In this document: piece by piece, positions 227 to 51,429 of the stretch
Position numbering within the stretch: position 1 is the stretch's first letter
How the letters are laid out: each line of letters starts with the position of its first letter
NCBI GenBank assembly: GCA_027943245.1
Contig: JANDJZ010001748.1
Coordinates: 84,456 to 148,455, forward strand
Reading direction: 5' to 3'
Length of the DNA: 64,000 nucleotides
Source of the DNA: Acanthamoeba sp. SK_2022b
Taxonomy: Eukaryota > Discosea > Longamoebia > Acanthamoebidae
Program-made: the position numbers and the translations under genes
The notes under the pieces: generated by a model
Database searches by the model: none
Seen by the model: only the letters and a program-made list of their open reading frames with translations
Told to the model about the DNA's origin: nothing

Positions 227-1579
227 ATGTTGAGTATTTTTAAGCCGGCCGCACACACCGCCCGTGTGCCGAGCGATAAGGTAGACCCGCTCTACCGTAA
301 GCTGCGCTGGCAAATTTTCCTGGGGATCTTCTTCGGTTACGCCGCTTACTATCTGGTGCGTAAGAACTTCACCCTGGCCATGCCTTACCTGATCGAACAA
401 GGCTTCAGCCGCGGTGACCTCGGCTTCGCGCTGTCGGGCATCTCCATTGCCTACGGCTTCTCCAAATTCATCATGGGTTCGGTCTCCGACCGTTCCAACC
501 CGCGGGTGTTCCTGCCCGCCGGCCTGATCCTGGCGGCGGCGGTGATGTTGTTCATGGGCTTCGTGCCGTGGGCCACCTCCAGCATCGCCATCATGTTCGT
601 CCTGCTGTTCCTGTGCGGCTGGTTCCAGGGCATGGGTTGGCCGCCGTGCGGCCGCACCATGGTGCACTGGTGGTCGCAGAAAGAACGCGGCGGCATCGTT
701 TCCATCTGGAACTGCGCCCACAACGTGGGTGGCGGCCTGCCGCCGCTGCTATTCCTGCTGGGTATGGCCTGGTTCAACGACTGGCACGCGGCGCTGTACA
801 TGCCGGCCTTCGGCGCCATCCTGGTGGCCCTGATCGCCTTCGCCCTGATGCGCGACACCCCGCAATCCTGCGGCCTGCCGCCAATTGAAGAGTACAAAAA
901 CGACTATCCGGACGACTACAGCGAAAAAGACGAAGAAGAGCTGACCGCCAAGCAGATCTTCATGCAGTACATTCTGCCGAACAAGCTGCTGTGGTACATC
1001 GCGGTCGCCAACGTGTTCGTCTATCTGCTGCGTTACGGCATTCTGGACTGGTCGCCGACCTACCTGAAAGAAGTGAAACACTTCGCACTGGACAAGTCGT
1101 CCTGGGCCTACTTCCTGTATGAATACGCCGGTATCCCGGGCACCCTGCTGTGCGGCTGGATGTCGGACAAAGTGTTCAAAGGCAACCGCGGCGCCACCGG
1201 CGTGTTCTTCATGACGCTGGTGACCATCGCCACCGTGGTGTTCTGGATGAACCCGGCCGGTAACCCGACCGTGGACATGATCTGTATGCTGGTCATCGGC
1301 TTCCTGATCTACGGCCCGGTGATGCTGATCGGCCTGCACGCACTGGAGCTGGCGCCGAAGAAAGCCGCCGGCACCGCCGCGGGCTTCACCGGCCTGTTCG
1401 GCTACCTGGGCGGCTCGGTTGCAGCCAGCGCCATCGTCGGTTACACCGTGGACTTCTTCGGTTGGGACGGCGGCTTCATGGTGATGATCGGCGGCGGCGT
1501 GCTGGCGGTTATCCTGCTGCTGCTGACCATGCTGAACGAAAAGAAACACCACGCGGAAATCGCCGCCAAGCGCGGTTAA
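227..1579 (+). CDS. glpT: Glycerol-3-phosphate/phosphate antiporter GlpT
   Basis: GlpT is an inner-membrane major facilitator superfamily antiporter that imports sn-glycerol-3-phosphate in exchange for inorganic phosphate. The same protein admits fosfomycin. The 450-residue product is the usual length (E. coli 452) and is nearly collinear with it from the MLSIFKPA start. The substrate-site arginines are in place in YYLVRKNF and [11 protein letters not shown], and the conserved histidine lies in [10 protein letters not shown]. The ATG is preceded by GGAGGC at a good spacing. glpQ follows in the same direction after a hairpin, so the two probably form one GlpR-controlled unit with attenuation between them. 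Confidence 0.97.
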
Positions 1580-1604
1580 GCGTCACACGACTTTTGCATG
1601 ATTT

Positions 1605-1627
1605 AAAGGCCGCCCTGCGGCCTTTTT
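1605..1627 (+). terminator. Hairpin between glpT and glpQ
   Basis: A perfect 9-bp stem, AAAGGCCGC with GCGGCCTTT around a CCT loop, runs into TTTTT shortly after the glpT stop. It looks like an intrinsic terminator. It sits inside an expected operon, so it may only lower glpQ expression relative to glpT. Confidence 0.7.
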
Positions 1628-1662
1628 ACTACCCTGCCCCCAACAACACGGAGAAAAACGGA

Positions 1663-2742
1663 ATGCGGACTCAAGTCAAAGCCCTGCTGACAGGGATCAT
1701 TCTCGCCACCTCGATGGTCAGCGCCGCACAGGCAGCGGACAAAGTGGTGATCGCCCACCGCGGCGCCAGCGGCTACCTGCCGGAACATACCCTGCCGGCG
1801 AAAGCGATGGCCTACGCCCAGGGCGCCGATTACCTCGAACAAGATCTGGTGATGACCAAGGACAACGAGCTGGTGGTGCTGCACGACCATTACCTCGATC
1901 GCGTCACCGACGTCGCCGAACGCTTCCCGGACCGCGCGCGCAAAGACGGCCGCTACTACGCCATCGACTTTACGCTGGCGGAGATCAAATCGCTGAAGTT
2001 CACCGAAGGCTTTGAAATCGAAAACGGCAAGAAGGTACAGGGTTATCCTGGCCGCTTCCCGATGGGCAAATCCGACTTCCGCGTACACACCTTCCAGGAA
2101 GAGATCGAGTTCGTGCAGGGTCTGAACCATTCGACCGGCAAAAACATCGGCATCTACCCTGAAATCAAGGCGCCGTGGTTCCACAAACAGGAAGGCAAAG
2201 ACATCTCCAGCAAAGTGCTGGCGGTACTCAAGCAGTACGGTTACACCGGCAAGAACGATAACGTCTACCTGCAGTGCTTCGACGCCAACGAGCTCAAACG
2301 CATCAAGAACGAGCTGGAGCCGAAGCTGGGCATGGATCTGAAGCTGGTGCAGCTGATCGCCTATAACGACTGGCAGGAAACCTACGAGCAGAAAGCCGAC
2401 GGCAAGTGGGTAGAATACGACTACGACTGGATGTTCAAGCCGGGCGCGATGAAGAAAATCGCTCAGTATGCCGACGGCATCGGGCCGGACTACCACATGC
2501 TGGTGGTCGCGGATCAATCCAAGCCGGGCCACATCGTGCTGACCGACATGGTGAAAGAAGCGCATGCCAGCAAGCTGGCGGTGCACCCGTTCACCATCCG
2601 CGCCGATGCGCTGCCGAAGTACGTGACCGACGTGAACCAGCTGTATGACGTGATTTACAACCAGGCCGGCGTCGACGGTGTGTTCACCGACTTCCCGGAC
2701 AAGGGCGTGCAGTTCCTGCAGAAGCAGGGCCAGCACAAGTAA
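1663..2742 (+). CDS. glpQ: Periplasmic glycerophosphodiester phosphodiesterase GlpQ
   Basis: GlpQ hydrolyses glycerophosphodiesters in the periplasm to glycerol-3-phosphate plus an alcohol, and GlpT then imports the product. The ATG at 1663 follows GGAG and gives 360 residues (E. coli 358). The reading frame is open further upstream into the glpT end, but that extension is not homologous. The N-terminus is a signal peptide ending in AAQA. The mature enzyme starts with the GDPD core HRGASGYLPEHT, followed by the acidic metal and catalytic residues in EQDLVMTKD and VVLHDH and by YPEIKAPW. Family and context agree. Confidence 0.96.
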   Translation: MRTQVKALLTGIILATSMVSAAQAADKVVIAHRGASGYLPEHTLPAKAMAYAQGADYLEQDLVMTKDNELVVLHDHYLDRVTDVAERFPDRARKDGRYYAIDFTLAEIKSLKFTEGFEIENGKKVQGYPGRFPMGKSDFRVHTFQEEIEFVQGLNHSTGKNIGIYPEIKAPWFHKQEGKDISSKVLAVLKQYGYTGKNDNVYLQCFDANELKRIKNELEPKLGMDLKLVQLIAYNDWQETYEQKADGKWVEYDYDWMFKPGAMKKIAQYADGIGPDYHMLVVADQSKPGHIVLTDMVKEAHASKLAVHPFTIRADALPKYVTDVNQLYDVIYNQAGVDGVFTDFPDKGVQFLQKQGQHK

Positions 2743-2746
2743 TGCC

Positions 2747-2769
2747 AAGGGCGCCGCAAGGCGCCCTTG
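2747..2769 (+). terminator. Terminator hairpin after glpQ (first of two identical copies)
   Basis: A 9-bp GC-rich stem, AAGGGCGCC with GGCGCCCTT around GCAA, lies directly after the glpQ stop. The same 23 bases recur at 2909-2931. There is only a short T-run, so termination strength is uncertain. The 87-bp repeat follows immediately. Confidence 0.65.
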
Positions 2770-2770
2770 A

Positions 2771-2857
2771 ATTGCTGACAAAGGAGGAAAAAACGTGGTT
2801 TTTCCTCCTTTGTGGATATCAGTCGAAAATCAATAAATTGATTTTCCTTGTTTTTTA
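2771..2857 (+). repeat. 87-bp double-hairpin repeat, copy 1
   Basis: This element matches 49304-49390 on the other strand at 80 of 87 positions by manual alignment. It holds two palindromes. The first is a 15-bp stem with arms ACAAAGGAGGAAAAA and TTTTTCCTCCTTTGT. The second has arms AAAATCAAT and ATTGATTTT and is followed by TTTTTT. Both copies lie just after a stop codon (glpQ here, rep there) in the orientation of that gene. This suggests a 3'-end, terminator-like role. It is not REP or ERIC as I know those consensus sequences. Confidence 0.85.
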
Positions 2858-2908
2858 GATATTGCCCTCTGTCCGCTCGGCAACGTCATCCGGCTTATCA
2901 TTGACTTT

Positions 2909-2931
2909 AAGGGCGCCGCAAGGCGCCCTTG
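2909..2931 (-). terminator. Terminator hairpin after yigL (second identical copy)
   Basis: These 23 bases are identical to 2747-2769, with the AAGGGCGCC/GGCGCCCTT stem. The hairpin lies 28 bases past the yigL stop and, read on the minus strand, would end yigL. The two copies face each other across the 87-bp repeat between the convergent genes glpQ and yigL. Confidence 0.6.
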
Positions 2932-2958: not shown

Positions 2959-3756
2959 TCAGAGGAACATCTTGCGCAGGTAGTGCGGCACCGCGTTATC
3001 GACGTTGGAGCCGATCACTTCCAGCTCCGGCAGCATATCCTTCAGGCGCTGATGCGCATCGCGCATGATGCAGCCCTTGCCGGCCATCGACAGCATCTCC
3101 AGATCGTTCATGCCGTCGCCGAAGGCGATGCACTCTTGCAGCGTATAGCCGATGATCTTGGCCACTTCTTCCAGCGCATGCCCTTTCGACACGCCGCCCG
3201 CCATCACTTCCAGGCAGGTCGGGAACGAGAAGCTGACGTTGACCCGATCGCCCCAGCGCGCGTTGATGGCATCTTCCACCTGCAGCAGCCGCTCGTGATC
3301 TTCGCAGGTGAAGTAGACCTTGCAGACGCCGTCGGTTTCCAGCAGGCCCGGCTCGAACAGCTGATATTTGAACACCGACTCCTGGAAGAACTCTTCCTGC
3401 TCAGGGCTTTCGCGGTTGATGAACCAGTCATCGTTACGGTAGACGTTGGTGGTGATCTCCGGATCGTCGTGCAGCATGCCGTACAGATCGCGGGCGATAT
3501 CCCCGTCCAGGTTATGGCTGAAGATCAACTCGCCGGCGGTGTTGTGCACCCGCGCGCCGTTGGAGGTGATCATAAAGGCGCTGATCTCCAGGCTGTCGCG
3601 GATCTGCGCCACGTCGATATGGTGACGGCCGGTGGCGAACACGAAATGTACGCCGCGCTGGGTCAGCAACTTCAGCGTTTCTTTGGCGTACGGCGACAGG
3701 GTATGGTCGGGAGACAGCAGCGTGCCATCTAAATCGGAAGCGACGACGTGATACAT
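2959..3756 (-). CDS. yigL: HAD-family sugar/pyridoxal phosphatase YigL
   Basis: YigL is a cytoplasmic Cof-type phosphatase of the haloacid dehalogenase superfamily. The E. coli protein dephosphorylates pyridoxal phosphate and sugar phosphates and helps relieve sugar-phosphate stress. The 265-residue product has the usual length. It shows motif I SDLDGTLLSPD at the N-terminus, TNGARVHN, the lysine in GGVSKGHAL, and motif IV FGDGMNDLEML. It starts four bases after the pldB stop, with its ribosome site (AGAGG) inside the end of pldB, so the two are coupled as pldB-yigL. Confidence 0.93.
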   Translation of the reverse strand: MYHVVASDLDGTLLSPDHTLSPYAKETLKLLTQRGVHFVFATGRHHIDVAQIRDSLEISAFMITSNGARVHNTAGELIFSHNLDGDIARDLYGMLHDDPEITTNVYRNDDWFINRESPEQEEFFQESVFKYQLFEPGLLETDGVCKVYFTCEDHERLLQVEDAINARWGDRVNVSFSFPTCLEVMAGGVSKGHALEEVAKIIGYTLQECIAFGDGMNDLEMLSMAGKGCIMRDAHQRLKDMLPELEVIGSNVDNAVPHYLRKMFL

Positions 3757-27913: not shown

Positions 27914-28120
27914 AAAAAAAACACTTGCCGCAGGGCAAGTGTATAAAGAAGCAATCAGGTCTAGGACAACAGGGGCGGTGCCTCACTCAACGTTTTGCCC
28001 TGAGCGTGATGACGGGTTAGTCATCGTTCTCGTGGGCGATAGGCACCCTAAATCGGCTCTGCGTCATTCCCAGGGTTTATGAGGCCTAAGGCGAACATAA
28101 GAGGTGGAATGAGCATCTAC
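27914..28120 (-). ncRNA. glmZ: Small regulatory RNA GlmZ
   Basis: GlmZ is an Hfq-binding RNA that activates glmS (glucosamine-6-phosphate synthase) translation. RapZ and RNase E inactivate it by cleavage. The minus strand begins GTAGATGCTCATTCCA, continues with CTCTTATGTTCGCCTTAG, keeps GAATGACGCAGAGCCG, then AACGTTGAGTGA and TGTTGTC...AGACCTG, all shared with E. coli GlmZ as I recall it. It ends in the hairpin ACACTTGCC/GGCAAGTGT followed by T8. The length from predicted start to T-run is 207 nt, the E. coli precursor length. It lies beside hemY, as in E. coli, but aslA is absent. Confidence 0.93.
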
Positions 28121-28495: not shown

Positions 28496-28563
28496 CATAA
28501 ACGACAGACGAAAAAAAACCGACTTGCGTCGGTTTCTTTGAGAGTGGTCGGCGAAAGAGGATT
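28496..28563 (-). repeat. Direct repeat A: duplicated tRNA-Pro 3' end plus terminator
   Basis: These 68 bases match 28657-28724 at 62 positions. The minus strand contains a 19-nt copy of the tRNA-Pro 3' end (AATCCTCTTTCGCCGACCA, one base different), a short linker and a terminator stem AACCGAC/GTCGGTT with a T-run. The rest of the tRNA is missing. The repeat period is 161 bp. Confidence 0.85.
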
Positions 28564-28656
28564 ACGCCCATCTTTGATGCGCGCCCTGCGGGCCGTTGCT
28601 GAAGCAACGTTGTCTCGCTACGCGAGGCTCGAACCTCCTGCGGAGGTGCTCATCCT

Positions 28657-28724
28657 CATAAACTGCAGGCGTAAAAAAACCGACTTGCGTCGGTTTCTTT
28701 GAAAGTGGTCGGCGAGAGAGGATT
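28657..28724 (-). repeat. Direct repeat B: true tRNA-Pro 3' end plus terminator
   Basis: This copy is the genuine 3' end of tRNA-Pro (AATCCTCTCTCGCCGACCA) with the operon terminator AACCGAC-TTGC-GTCGGTT and T7 on the minus strand. It recurs 161 bp further downstream as repeat A. The 93 bases between the copies hold GC-rich inverted repeats and a T-arm-like GAGGTTCGAGCCTC. Confidence 0.85.
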
Positions 28725-45979: not shown

Positions 45980-46306
45980 TTACAGATTCGCGTTCAGGAA
46001 ATCTTTGAGCTGACCTTTGGACAACGCGCCAACCTTGGTCGCGGCCACTTCACCGTTCTTGAACAGCAACAGCGTAGGGATACCACGGATACCGTACTTA
46101 GGCGCGGTAGCCGGGTTCTGATCGATATTCAGCTTGGTGATGGTCAGTTTGCCTTCGAACTCTTCGGCAATCTCATCCAGAATCGGAGCAATCATCTTGC
46201 ACGGCCCACACCATTCAGCCCAGAAATCGACCAGGATCGGCCCTTCCGCTTTCAGCACATCGGCTTCGAAGCTGCTGTCAGTCAGGTGAATAATTTTATC
46301 GCTCAT
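45980..46306 (-). CDS. trxA: Thioredoxin 1 TrxA
   Basis: TrxA is the main cytoplasmic dithiol reductase, electron donor to ribonucleotide reductase and others. The 108-residue protein has the active site AEWCGPCKM and the cis-proline in RGIPTLLLF. It is divergent from rhlB across 131 bp and upstream of rho, as in E. coli. Confidence 0.98.
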
Positions 46307-46437
46307 GTTCTACTCCACAGGATTATGTCTACCTTGTTGGTGTAGCATTAACCAACTCAAGGTGATTTTATTGCACCGCGTTTATTTCAACGGATGTGCT
46401 TTCGTAAAGCAATAGTTAGCTGATATTCTACCACACT

Positions 46438-47729: not shown

Positions 47730-49226
47730 ATGCTCAGTTCCAGCACGCTTTATGCTGCCATCGATCTCGGCTCCAACAGCTTCCACATGTTGGTGGTGCG
47801 CGAGGTGGCCGGCAGCATTCAGACTCTGGCGCGGATCAAGCGCAAGGTGCGCCTGGCGGCCGGGCTGGATCAGAACAATCACCTGTCGCATGAGGCCATG
47901 CAACGCGGCTGGCAGTGCCTGCGGCTGTTCTCCGAACGCCTGCAGGACATTCCGCGCGAGCAGATCCGCGTCGTCGCCACCGCCACGCTGCGCCTGGCGT
48001 CCAATGCCGATGAGTTTCTGCAGGTCGCCGAGCAAATCCTCGGCTGCCCGGTGCAGGTGATCAGCGGCGAAGAAGAAGCGCGGCTGATTTATCACGGCGT
48101 CGCGCACACCACCGGCGGGCCGGATCGGCGGCTGGTCGTCGACATCGGCGGCGGCAGCACCGAACTCGTCACCGGCACCGGCGCACAGGCATCGCAGCTG
48201 TATAGCCTGTCGATGGGTTGCGTCACCTGGCTGGAACGCTATTTCAGCGATCGCAACCTTGGTCAAGAAAACTTCGAACGCGCCGAACAGGCCGCGCGCG
48301 AAATGGTGCGGCCGATCGCACCGCAGCTGCGCCAGCAAGGTTGGCAGATCTGCGTCGGCGCTTCCGGCACCGTGCAGGCGCTGCAGGAGATCATGGTGGC
48401 GCAAGGCATGGATGAACGCATCACCCTGCCCAAGCTGCGCCAGCTGAAACAGCGCGCTATTCAGTGCGGCAAGCTGGAAGAGCTGGAGATCGAAGGGTTG
48501 ACGTTGGAGCGCGCACTGGTCTTCCCGAGCGGCCTGTCCATTCTGTTGGCCATCTTCCAGGAGCTGGGCATCGAGAGCATGATGCTGGCCGGCGGGGCGC
48601 TGCGTGAAGGCCTGGTTTACGGCATGCTGCATCTGCCGGTGGAGCAGGATATTCGCATCCGCACCATCCGCAACCTGCAGCGTCGCTACCTGATCGACAC
48701 CGAGCAGGCCGAACGCGTCAGCCAACTCGCCGCCAACTTCTCGCAGCAGGTCGCCAACGAGTGGCAGCTGGATGCGCGATGTCGCGAGCTGTTGCACAGC
48801 GCCAGCCTGATCCACGAACTCGGCCTCAGCGTCGATTTCAAGCAGGCGCCGCAACACGCCGCTTACCTGATCCGCCACCTGGACTTACCCGGCTTTACCC
48901 CGGCGCAGAAAAAACTGCTGGCCACCCTGCTGCAAAACCAGAGCAACACCCTCGACCTGTCGCTGTTGAACCAGCAAAACGCCCTGCCGCCGCGCACTGC
49001 GCAGCGTCTGTGCCGCATTTTGCGCCTGGCGATCATCTTCGCCAGCCGCCGCCGCGACGACACGCTGCCGGCGGTACGGTTACGCGCCAATCAGGACGAT
49101 GAACTGACGGTGATCTTGCCGCCGGGTTGGCTGGAACAGCATCCGCTGCGCGCCGAGGCGCTGGAGCAGGAAAGCCACTGGCAGAGCTACGTCCACTGGA
49201 CGCTGCGGTTGGAAGAACAACGTTGA
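47730..49226 (+). CDS. gppA: pppGpp 5'-phosphohydrolase / exopolyphosphatase GppA
   Basis: GppA converts pppGpp to ppGpp and belongs to the Ppx/GppA family of the actin-like ATPase fold. The 498-residue protein has [27 protein letters not shown] and [14 protein letters not shown], then a C-terminal HD-like helical domain. It is probably cotranscribed with rhlB. It converges on rep across a region holding the second 87-bp repeat. Confidence 0.95.
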
Positions 49227-49303
49227 AATGACCAGGGCGCGATGAGCGCCTGAAGGTTAATGGCAAACCTGATGACATTGCCAGGTTTACAGAAGACAGC
49301 ATA

Positions 49304-49390
49304 TAAAAAATAAGGAAAATCAATTCATTGATTTTCGGCTGATAACCTCAAAGGAGGAAAAACCACGCTTTTTCCTCCTTTGTCAGTAAT
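49304..49390 (-). repeat. 87-bp double-hairpin repeat, copy 2
   Basis: The minus-strand sequence matches 2771-2857 at 80 of 87 positions. Both hairpins are kept: the AAAGGAGGAAAAA/TTTTTCCTCCTTT stem and the AAAATCAAT/ATTGATTTT stem followed by TTTTTT. The element begins 14 bases after the rep stop in the rep direction. Several differences fall in loops or linkers, consistent with selection for the stems. Confidence 0.85.
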
Positions 49391-49404
49391 CTAGCCCTGT
49401 CTTT

Positions 49405-51429
49405 TTAATTCCCGCCTTTGGCCTTGGCCAGCTGGGCGCGGATATTGGCCAGATGGCTTTGCCCCTTCTGCATCCGCTCCTGCGGGCTCACCACTTTGCG
49501 CTCGGTTTCCCACGCCAAATCGTCCTGCGGCAGCTCCAGCAGGAAGCGGCTCGGCTCCGGCCGCACCAGTTCGCCGTACTGACGGCGCTCGCGGCACAGG
49601 GTGAAGATCAGCTCTTTTTGCGCGCGGGTGATCCCCACATAGGCCAGACGCCGCTCTTCATCGACATTGTCTTCATCGATGCTGCTCTGGTGCGGCAGCA
49701 GGCCCTCTTCCATGCCCACCAGGAATACGTAGGGGAACTCCAGCCCTTTGGAAGCGTGCAGCGTCATCAGCTGTACCTGATCCAGTTCTTCTTCGCTTTC
49801 ACCGCGCTCCATCATGTCGCGCAGGGTGAAGCGCGTCACCACCTGGGTCAGCGTCATCGGCTCGTCCAGATCGTTGCCTTCCAGCATCTCGGTCATCCAG
49901 CCGAACAGCGTATTGACGTTCTTCATCCGCATTTCGGCGGCCTTCGGGCTGGTCGAGGTTTCAAACAGCCAGCTCTCATAGTCCACGCCGCGGATCAGAT
50001 CGCGCACCGCCGCCACCGGCTCACGTTCCGCCTGCTGGGCGATACCGCCGAGCCAGTGGGTAAAGCGCTGCAATGACTCCAGCCCGCGCCCGGTCAAGTG
50101 CTGGCTCAGCCCCAGATCGAAACTGGCGTGGAATAAACTCTTGTTGCGCTGGTTGGCCCATTCGCCGAGCTTCTGCAGCGTCGCCGGGCCGATCTCGCGC
50201 TTGGGGGTATTGACGATGCGCAGGAAGGCGCTGTCGTCCTCCGGGTTGGTCAGCACGCGCAGGTAGGCCAACAGATCCTTGATCTCGGGGCGCGAGAAGA
50301 ACGAGGTGCCGCCGGAAATCTTGTACGGGATGCGGTTTTGCATCAGCATCTTTTCAAACACCCGCGACTGGTGGTTACCGCGGTACAGGATCGCATAGTC
50401 GCCGTAGTTGGTCTTTTTCACGAAGTGGTGGGCGATCAGTTCCCCCACCACCCGCTCGGCTTCGTGATCCTCGTTGTTGGCGGTCACCACTTTCAGCTCT
50501 TCGCCATACCCCAGCTCGGAAAACAGCCGTTTTTCAAACACGTGTGGGTTATTGGCGATCAGAATGTTGGCCGCCTTCAGGATACGCTCGCTGGAACGGT
50601 AGTTTTGCTCCAGCTTGATCACCTGCAGCGCCGGGAAATCTTCCTTCAACAACACCAGGTTCTGCGGCCGCGCGCCGCGCCAGGAGTAGATCGACTGGTC
50701 GTCGTCACCCACCACGGTAAAGCGCGCGCGGTTGCCCACCAGCAGCTTAACCAGCTCGTACTGGCTGGTGTTGGTATCCTGGTATTCATCCACCAGCAGA
50801 TAGCGAATACGCTGCTGCCAGCGTTCGCGCACCTCTTCGTTGCGTTGCAACAACAGCGTCGGCAACAGGATCAGGTCGTCGAAGTCCAGCACGTTGCACG
50901 CCCGCATATGGGCGTGGTACAGGCCGTAGCAGTGGGCGAACAGCTTGTCGCGCTCCGAGCGCGCCAGCTCCGCCGCCCGCTGGGGATCGATCAGGTCGTT
51001 TTTCCAGTTGGAGATGGTCGAGATCAGCTGCGCCACCAGCGTTTTATCGCTTTCCAGCCACTTTTCGGTCAGCTCTTTCAACAGCGCCAGCTGATCCTGG
51101 TCGTCGAACAGCGAGAAGTTGGACTTCATCCCCAACGCCACGTATTCCCGTTTGATGATCTCCAGCCCCAGGGTATGGAAGGTGGAAATCATCAGCCCGC
51201 GCGCCTCTTTACGCCCCAGGGTTTGCGACACGCGCTCTTTCATCTCGCGTGCGGCCTTGTTGGTAAAGGTCACGGCGGCGATGTGCCGCGCCTGATAGCC
51301 GCAGTGGTGGATCAGGTGGGCTATCTTGTTGGTGATAACGCGCGTCTTGCCGGAACCGGCACCGGCCAACACCAGGCAGGGCCCGGTAACGAATTCGACG
51401 GCTTGTTGTTGGCTGGGGTTTAATCGCAT
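49405..51429 (-). CDS. rep: ATP-dependent DNA helicase Rep
   Basis: Rep is an SF1A 3'-5' helicase that clears proteins ahead of the replication fork. The 674-residue length matches E. coli (673). Visible are [63 protein letters not shown] and [11 protein letters not shown]. It is a paralogue of UvrD in the same window. It is divergent from ppiC and followed by the 87-bp repeat. Confidence 0.97.

Follow-up and report, generated by a model that had tools for sequence, protein, structure and literature searches.

A YPAL-like mobile repeat that duplicates terminator hairpins in Serratia and related bacteria, probably moved in trans by IS1182-type transposases

The 64,000-nucleotide stretch of DNA analyzed here (hereafter the window; G000:C311:84456-148455) contains two pairs of convergent genes that are separated by copies of one short repeat. 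The first pair comprises glpQ, which encodes a glycerophosphodiester phosphodiesterase (1462..2742, plus strand; NF008354, 6.8e-203; the start is mechanical, and residue 68 is the first that the family profile matches), and yigL (2959..3756, minus strand; NF008213, 2.1e-159). The second comprises the DNA helicase gene rep (49405..51429, minus strand; NF008172, E-value 0) and a gene for a gppA-type phosphatase (47730..49226, plus strand; NF008260, 9.3e-282). The initial annotation had described an 87-bp repeat with two palindromes, placed within 30 bases of a stop codon in each case, and these observations hold: positions 2771-2857 of the plus strand and 49304-49390 of the minus strand are identical at 80 of 87 positions, both hairpins are found in both copies, and 28 and 14 bases separate the repeat from the stop codons of glpQ and rep, respectively. 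Outside the two copies the best ungapped match to the 87-mer in the window agrees with it at 39 positions. The same annotation let the unit end at a TTTTTT run; the two copies are indeed similar up to this point, but their similarity continues past it to 138 bp, with 114 of 138 positions identical up to a second, inverted end.

Copy 1 occupies 2771..2908 on the plus strand, with ends that are accurate to about 1-2 bp and are set both by the 138-bp match to other copies and by two identical 23-bp hairpins, absent from the initial annotation, that bound it. These are the left (2747..2769, plus strand) and right (2909..2931, plus strand) copies of the glpQ terminator hairpin, which is single in the empty sites of relatives and is here present as a target-site duplication. 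The right copy, identified by its identity to the left one and by a terminator scan, is followed by the original T-rich tail; the left one runs directly into element sequence and has no T-rich tail of its own. The element opens with a left terminal inverted repeat (2770..2783, plus strand; AATTGCTGACAAAG) for which the family consensus is TAGATTGCTGACAAAG and to which the IS1182-type left ends CAGAYTGMTGACAAAG and CAGATTATTGACAAAG can be compared. The inner part of this end is overlapped by hairpin 1 (2778..2813, plus strand), a perfect 15-bp stem (2778-2792 with 2799-2813) of -19.7 kcal/mol (z -5.9). It is followed by hairpin 2 (2825..2846), the palindrome GAAAATCAATAAATTGATTTTC with a perfect 10-bp stem (2825-2834 with 2837-2846) that matches the IHF consensus on both strands, and by a right terminal inverted repeat (2893..2908, minus strand; family consensus GAGATTGATGACAAAC) that has diverged in this copy. 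RNA of the filled glpQ site folds far more stably than its shuffles (z -7.7). In copy 2 (49253..49390, minus strand) hairpin 1 is a 14-bp stem, located as a palindrome in the sequence at 49349..49382 (minus strand), and the IHF-like palindrome of hairpin 2 recurs with its consensus match at 49315..49336.

A search of the window's own assembly with the 138-bp query gave 16 matches that reduce to six distinct copies, a count that omits partial palindrome matches and two copies on contig C312, an apparent duplicate of C311 with the same spacing. The glpQ and rep ends in the window match Serratia-set genomes at 94-100%, from which we infer that the window is part of a Serratia contig. At 45 Mb, in 1129 contigs, the assembly greatly exceeds the size of a Serratia genome; it is probably that of a eukaryote, or a mixed one, with Serratia contigs inside it. 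Three Rfam matches were also noted in the window, all on the minus strand: GlmZ (27915-28120), RtT RNA (28545-28674) and the TrxA 5' UTR thermometer (46277-46364).

The 87-bp unit is the left part of a gene-less mobile element of about 140 bp. We assembled 117 copies from Serratia, Entomohabitans and Cedecea, drawn from the window, its own assembly, 15 contig matches, genome-search loci and 60 more stretches; they are a part of all matches listed, identical or short-flank copies having been dropped. A flanking direct repeat with a score of at least 12 accompanies 98 of the 117, compared with 1 of 300 control pairs that combined, at random, a left flank of one copy with a right flank of another. 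No duplication of that score was found in the other 19, which include the rep copy and are divided among Entomohabitans (10), the Serratia set (7, three of them at the rep site) and Cedecea (2). When the 98 duplicated copies are merged by similarity, 74 distinct target sites remain, and in 68 of these the duplication contains a hairpin scoring at least 12, a level reached by none of the 74 shuffled versions. The duplications are 12-31 bp long (median 22) and follow the hairpins closely at their ends: among the 70 sites with a hairpin score of at least 10, duplication and hairpin start within 2 nt of each other at 59 and end within 2 nt of each other at 56; the plain correlation between duplication length and hairpin length is modest (0.39). 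The element between the duplications has a median length of 140 bp in the 75 copies measured. Over the 8 nt that follow the hairpin, T is present on average 4.1 times on the right and 1.8 times on the left, which indicates that the outer hairpin retains the T-rich tail and the inner one is left without it.

Empty sites complete this picture. The glpQ terminator consists of one hairpin in relatives such as L294, L295 and L299, and of hairpin, element and hairpin in the window, L292 and L301; in another Serratia-set genome (L306) a truncated relic of the element lies at the same terminator. The rep terminator is likewise a single hairpin in, for example, L363 and L367, and is filled in the window, L358, L359, L361 and L365. 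At the filled rep sites the left side keeps CAGGGC only: comparison with the empty sites places this remnant of the hairpin at 49391..49399 (minus strand) in the window, the complete hairpin being found to the right of copy 2 (49232..49252, minus strand), so that the whole rep hairpin is not duplicated here. The element thus combines the features of a MITE: it is short, has terminal inverted repeats and no transposase, generates target-site duplications and is found at filled sites with empty counterparts. Its ends and target duplications presumably set it apart from REP, BIME and ERIC.

Neighboring genes were surveyed at the 32 sites with flanks of about 1 kb. At 26 of them an ORF of at least 150 aa on the same strand has its end no more than 100 nt upstream, and at 24 a convergent ORF ends downstream; 19 have both neighbors and one has neither; control positions shifted by 300 or 450 nt gave 0-2 of 32. 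A lenient, uncontrolled count of open frames at 87 sites yielded 73 same-strand, 66 convergent and 53 with both. The controlled figures and the empty sites bear out the suggestion that the repeat belongs to a mobile family residing at gene 3' ends. In contrast, the view that each copy is oriented with the gene it follows does not extend to the family, given the similar frequencies of same-strand upstream and convergent downstream neighbors. Rather, the element lies mostly within terminators between convergent genes, and its orientation is not fixed. The description of the repeat as a terminator-like cassette is not supported either, as the terminators called by the scan are those of the duplicated target hairpin, one on each side, with none in the 87-bp unit: existing terminator-like hairpins are the targets of the element. 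We likewise considered an intrinsic terminator cassette, with a GC-containing stem and a T-tract inside the unit, and the consensus scan revealed nothing of this form.

The two internal hairpins differ in how they are conserved. Over all 117 copies, pairing is kept in 1640 of 1725 cells of hairpin 1, where compensatory changes occur (GC, AT or CG at 2784-2807; AT or GC at 2785-2806), and in 1122 of 1170 cells of hairpin 2, whose letters are nearly invariant; these counts derive from a free MAFFT alignment with related copies counted singly and without a shuffle control. The compensatory changes in the one and the near-invariant letters of the other indicate that hairpin 1 is kept as a structure and hairpin 2 as a sequence. 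The AAGGAGG/CCTCCTT pairing in the large stem had previously been read as a Shine-Dalgarno consensus facing its own complement, but it is not conserved, as copies with AAGAAGG/CCTTCTT and AAGCAGG/CCTGCTT exist. Because these letters vary while the pairing persists, the resemblance to a Shine-Dalgarno sequence appears incidental and a role for it unlikely, and sequestration of such a sequence by the stem is rejected on the same grounds. Hairpin 2 was scored against WATCAANNNNTTR, which we take to be the IHF consensus: it matches on both strands in 102 of the 117 copies, none of the 60-nt left flanks contains a match, and four of the five matches in the 64-kb window fall in hairpin 2 of the two copies. 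The center of the palindrome lies at 0.48 of the element length (75 copies), and hairpin 2 is probably an IHF-binding site. An IS-like hairpin at the right end seemed likely by eye in some copies of the MITE; in copy 1 this candidate folds no better than shuffles (z 0.03) and it was not retained.

The family had been tentatively assigned to Serratia. Copies are indeed present in 20 of the 30 genomes of the Serratia genus set, but they are also found in Entomohabitans and Cedecea, with partial matches in Klebsiella and Providencia. In an even sample of the order at least 5 of 394 genomes have copies (two candidates scored per genome). The plasmid collection contributed 10 records, nine from Klebsiella and one from Providencia, in which the left 60% of the query is matched and none of which covers 80% of it; the window element had no match in the E. 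coli genome collection at an E-value of 0.001. A search of the free-licence PMC literature recovered no description of this repeat family. Among the repeats listed in PMC2847712 are 'Kristensenii39' (142 bp) and 'Aldovae3' (154 bp), either of which, when compared by the name and length given in that list, could be this family or a sister of it. The cleanest ends are those of the Cedecea copies, where CAGNNTGMTGACAAAS, with at most one mismatch, occurs 117 times (55 + 62) against once for the reversed control.

A candidate for the enzyme that mobilizes these repeats emerged from viral contigs. Among these, pairing of the exact end with its inverted counterpart delineated at least two elements of 1.6 kb lying between duplicated hairpins (L207 and L229). 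In L229 an intact 479-aa ORF encodes an IS1182 family transposase (NF033551, 5.1e-148) with Pfam DDE domains; in L207 the transposase frame is broken. In all, 16 distinct full elements of about 1.5-1.6 kb with paired ends were found, the viral ones among the matches listed, and 10 of them are flanked by duplicated hairpins: three of eight in genomes, five of six on plasmids and both of those on viral contigs (again among the matches listed). Six have no duplicated hairpin; five of these, as judged by eye, have a different hairpin on each side, which is what would be expected from recombination between copies. In one plasmid IS with a duplicated hairpin (L350) the loop is inverted between the left and right copies, as if flipped, an arrangement also seen at L008 and, by score only, at L239. 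Both the IS, which comes from other Enterobacterales, and the MITE have a left end ...GACAAAG and a right end ...GAC.AAC, and their ends match over 16 bp including the difference between a G on the left and a C on the right at the innermost base; the MITE consensus was built from 57 copies anchored on the inner bases, where conservation is therefore by construction, and its outermost base is T or G as against C in the IS. The left end passes into a hairpin in the one as in the other. The MITE differs from the IS in its unrelated core and in having no transposase gene, for which there is no room in 138 bp and which the full IS carries. The transposase that shares the element's ends is thus a DDE enzyme of the IS1182 family, and from these ends and the common target behavior we infer a link between the two.

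At an E-value of 1e-30, 13 of the 295 genomes in the GTDB family have relatives of this transposase, and the IS is present in 36 plasmid records, 22 of which have an annotated IS1182 family transposase under the match. No IS1182-type transposase was detected in the window's assembly (E-value 0.001), in Entomohabitans (E-value 1e-30, with the same query finding relatives elsewhere) or in 34 further genomes (E-value 1e-10), of which 26 belong to the Serratia set, 7 bear YPAL and one is that of Cedecea; the YPAL-bearing genome G144 has a partial transposase gene. The mobilizer is not resident where the repeats are common; it may have been gained and lost again with plasmids or phages, or it may be another protein. 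Shorter forms related by their ends were also encountered. Viral contigs L148, L162 and L183 contain elements of 138-219 bp that have these ends and lie between repeated hairpins (among the matches listed), and on an E. coli plasmid (L356, 401-531) a left-end piece of the IS of ~131 bp overlaps the end of a GyrI-like gene, such a piece being present in 7 E. coli plasmid records. Within the IS1182 family, IS1272/TnSha1 of staphylococci are described as targeting hairpins, several of them terminators, with no primary-sequence rule (PMC4923244, PMC5678879). The insertions of IS1272 described there, however, come at the expense of the stem-loop, which is removed or replaced with no duplication left behind, whereas the present family duplicates it.

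Much of this behavior is shared by the YPAL/RU-2 repeats of Yersinia, reportedly described by De Gregorio in 2006. The ends of RU-2 read CAGACTGCTGACAAA...TTTGTCAATAACCTCA (PMC2759123, Table 1b), and YPAL is characterized as intergenic, its insertions duplicating 3-26 bp of the target at dyad symmetries or next to them (PMC2229807); in what these sources give on ends and targets, the two families have the same ends, a similar size, duplicated hairpins and a preference for dyad symmetry downstream of genes. They differ in length (~168 bp as against 140 here), in their unrelated interiors, in the IHF-like palindrome of the present family and in its hosts, which are Serratia, Entomohabitans, Cedecea, Klebsiella and Providencia. 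That the element is itself a true member of YPAL/RU-2 we consider quite improbable. Its ends, size and targets agree with this idea, as does a duplication score of at least 12 in 8 of the 30 YPAL matches retrieved, a set with many partial ones, but when aligned to the 117 copies the 168-nt YPAL sequence corresponds to them at its ends alone, where the best matches are of 17-19 nt and one of the 117 reaches an E-value of 0.001, and it has no match in genomes G001 and G003 (five candidates scored in each). Thus, the shared ends, the duplications and the alignments together depict a family that behaves like YPAL, differs from it in sequence, and joins both YPAL and itself to IS1182. In six rhizobial or Sphingobium plasmid records the YPAL left end, exact over 19-20 nt, adjoins IS1182-type genes. 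The matches of the 37-nt YPAL end to plasmids (36 records, mostly rhizobial, E-values of at least 0.4) would by themselves be taken as chance, and it is the six with an adjacent IS1182-type match that lend weak support. Our search, which covered free-licence PMC papers, found none that names IS1182 and YPAL together.

Three other explanations can be weighed against the same evidence. Hairpin content and intergenic position are also found in REP/RAYT-type elements, which depend on a single-strand transposase, but the inverted ends, the long target duplications and the DDE transposase with the same ends render this origin extremely improbable, and we know of no such duplications at REP/RAYT insertions. 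More generally, ERIC, Correia/NEMIS, RUP and REP/BIME resemble the element as short intergenic palindromic repeats, and hairpin targeting is, to our knowledge, not a property of any of them. A Correia element also has an IHF site (PMC10969869), and the tabulated members of this group have other ends, with TA termini for several (PMC2229807, table). It is unlikely, though worth some weight, that the element is primarily a regulatory RNA acting at 3' ends, such as a transcript stabilizer, processing site or terminator under selection, with mobility incidental. The stable hairpin 1 with its compensatory changes and the location at gene ends would fit such a role, and a second-hand remark in PMC2229807 has it that YPAL might affect the stability of upstream transcripts. 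Against it stand the filled and empty states of orthologous sites among close relatives, the lack of an orientation rule at the 32 sites and the terminator scan, which calls none inside the unit; furthermore, the similar hairpin at the same place in the IS provides a transposition-side explanation for the structure of hairpin 1. Finally, the MITE could have been moved by a different, unseen transposase, of another DDE family or a distant relative of IS1182, with ends shared by descent or convergence. The absence of the tested kind of transposase from the repeat-rich genomes searched speaks in its favor, but the 16-bp end match that extends to the innermost base, the hairpin found at the corresponding position inside the IS left end and the production of the same hairpin duplications by the IS make it distinctly unlikely.

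We accordingly favor, with a probability of roughly 0.8, the reading that the element belongs to a YPAL-like MITE family that targets hairpins and terminators and was moved in trans by IS1182-type transposases. On this reading, the DDE transposase of IS1182-family elements with the same 16-bp ends probably acted on the MITE and would select DNA hairpins, chiefly terminator-like ones between convergent genes. The target may be the hairpin extruded as a cruciform, in which the two points of strand entry would be adjacent at any stem length; this would explain duplications of 12-31 bp that track the ends of the hairpin rather than a fixed stagger. If the element were joined at both feet of the hairpin, repair would duplicate the whole hairpin and leave a complete terminator beyond each side, making insertion close to harmless, and the element would become 3' untranslated RNA of the neighboring genes. 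Hairpin 1, kept as a structure, would correspond to the hairpin that lies immediately inside the left end of the IS, and hairpin 2, situated near mid-element, is probably bound by IHF, which would bend the short element so that its ends meet.

The glpQ and rep terminators elsewhere in the Serratia set are occupied by elements with the same ends and other interiors. One such interior (CCCGTTATTAGGGAGAGCGTGCCGAAGGGG...) is found at glpQ in L312 and at rep in L376 and, in the opposite orientation, L373; a further one (CAGATGGCTGACAAAGTCCTTTGCAG...) lies in the rep terminator of L383. The differing interiors and orientations at the same sites indicate that both terminators were struck several times independently. 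This raises the possibility, tentative and in our view somewhat short of probable, that YPAL, the present family and no fewer than two further interiors, types B and C of the glpQ and rep terminators, form one superfamily with an exchangeable core, in which IS1182-type transposases would cut the extruded terminator cruciform at its four-way base, the shape of the target would set the length of the duplication, the gene-end signal would be rebuilt on both sides, and a central IHF bend would close the 140-bp element.

IS1182-family transposases offer a candidate answer to the question of what moves the YPAL-type repeats of enterobacteria. They would also allow a comparison, within one transposase family, between a hairpin target that is replaced, as by the staphylococcal IS1272, and one that is duplicated, as seen here. 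Duplication of the hairpin would rebuild the terminator and provide a simple route to near-harmlessness, and it gives many mRNAs a long, structured 3' end.
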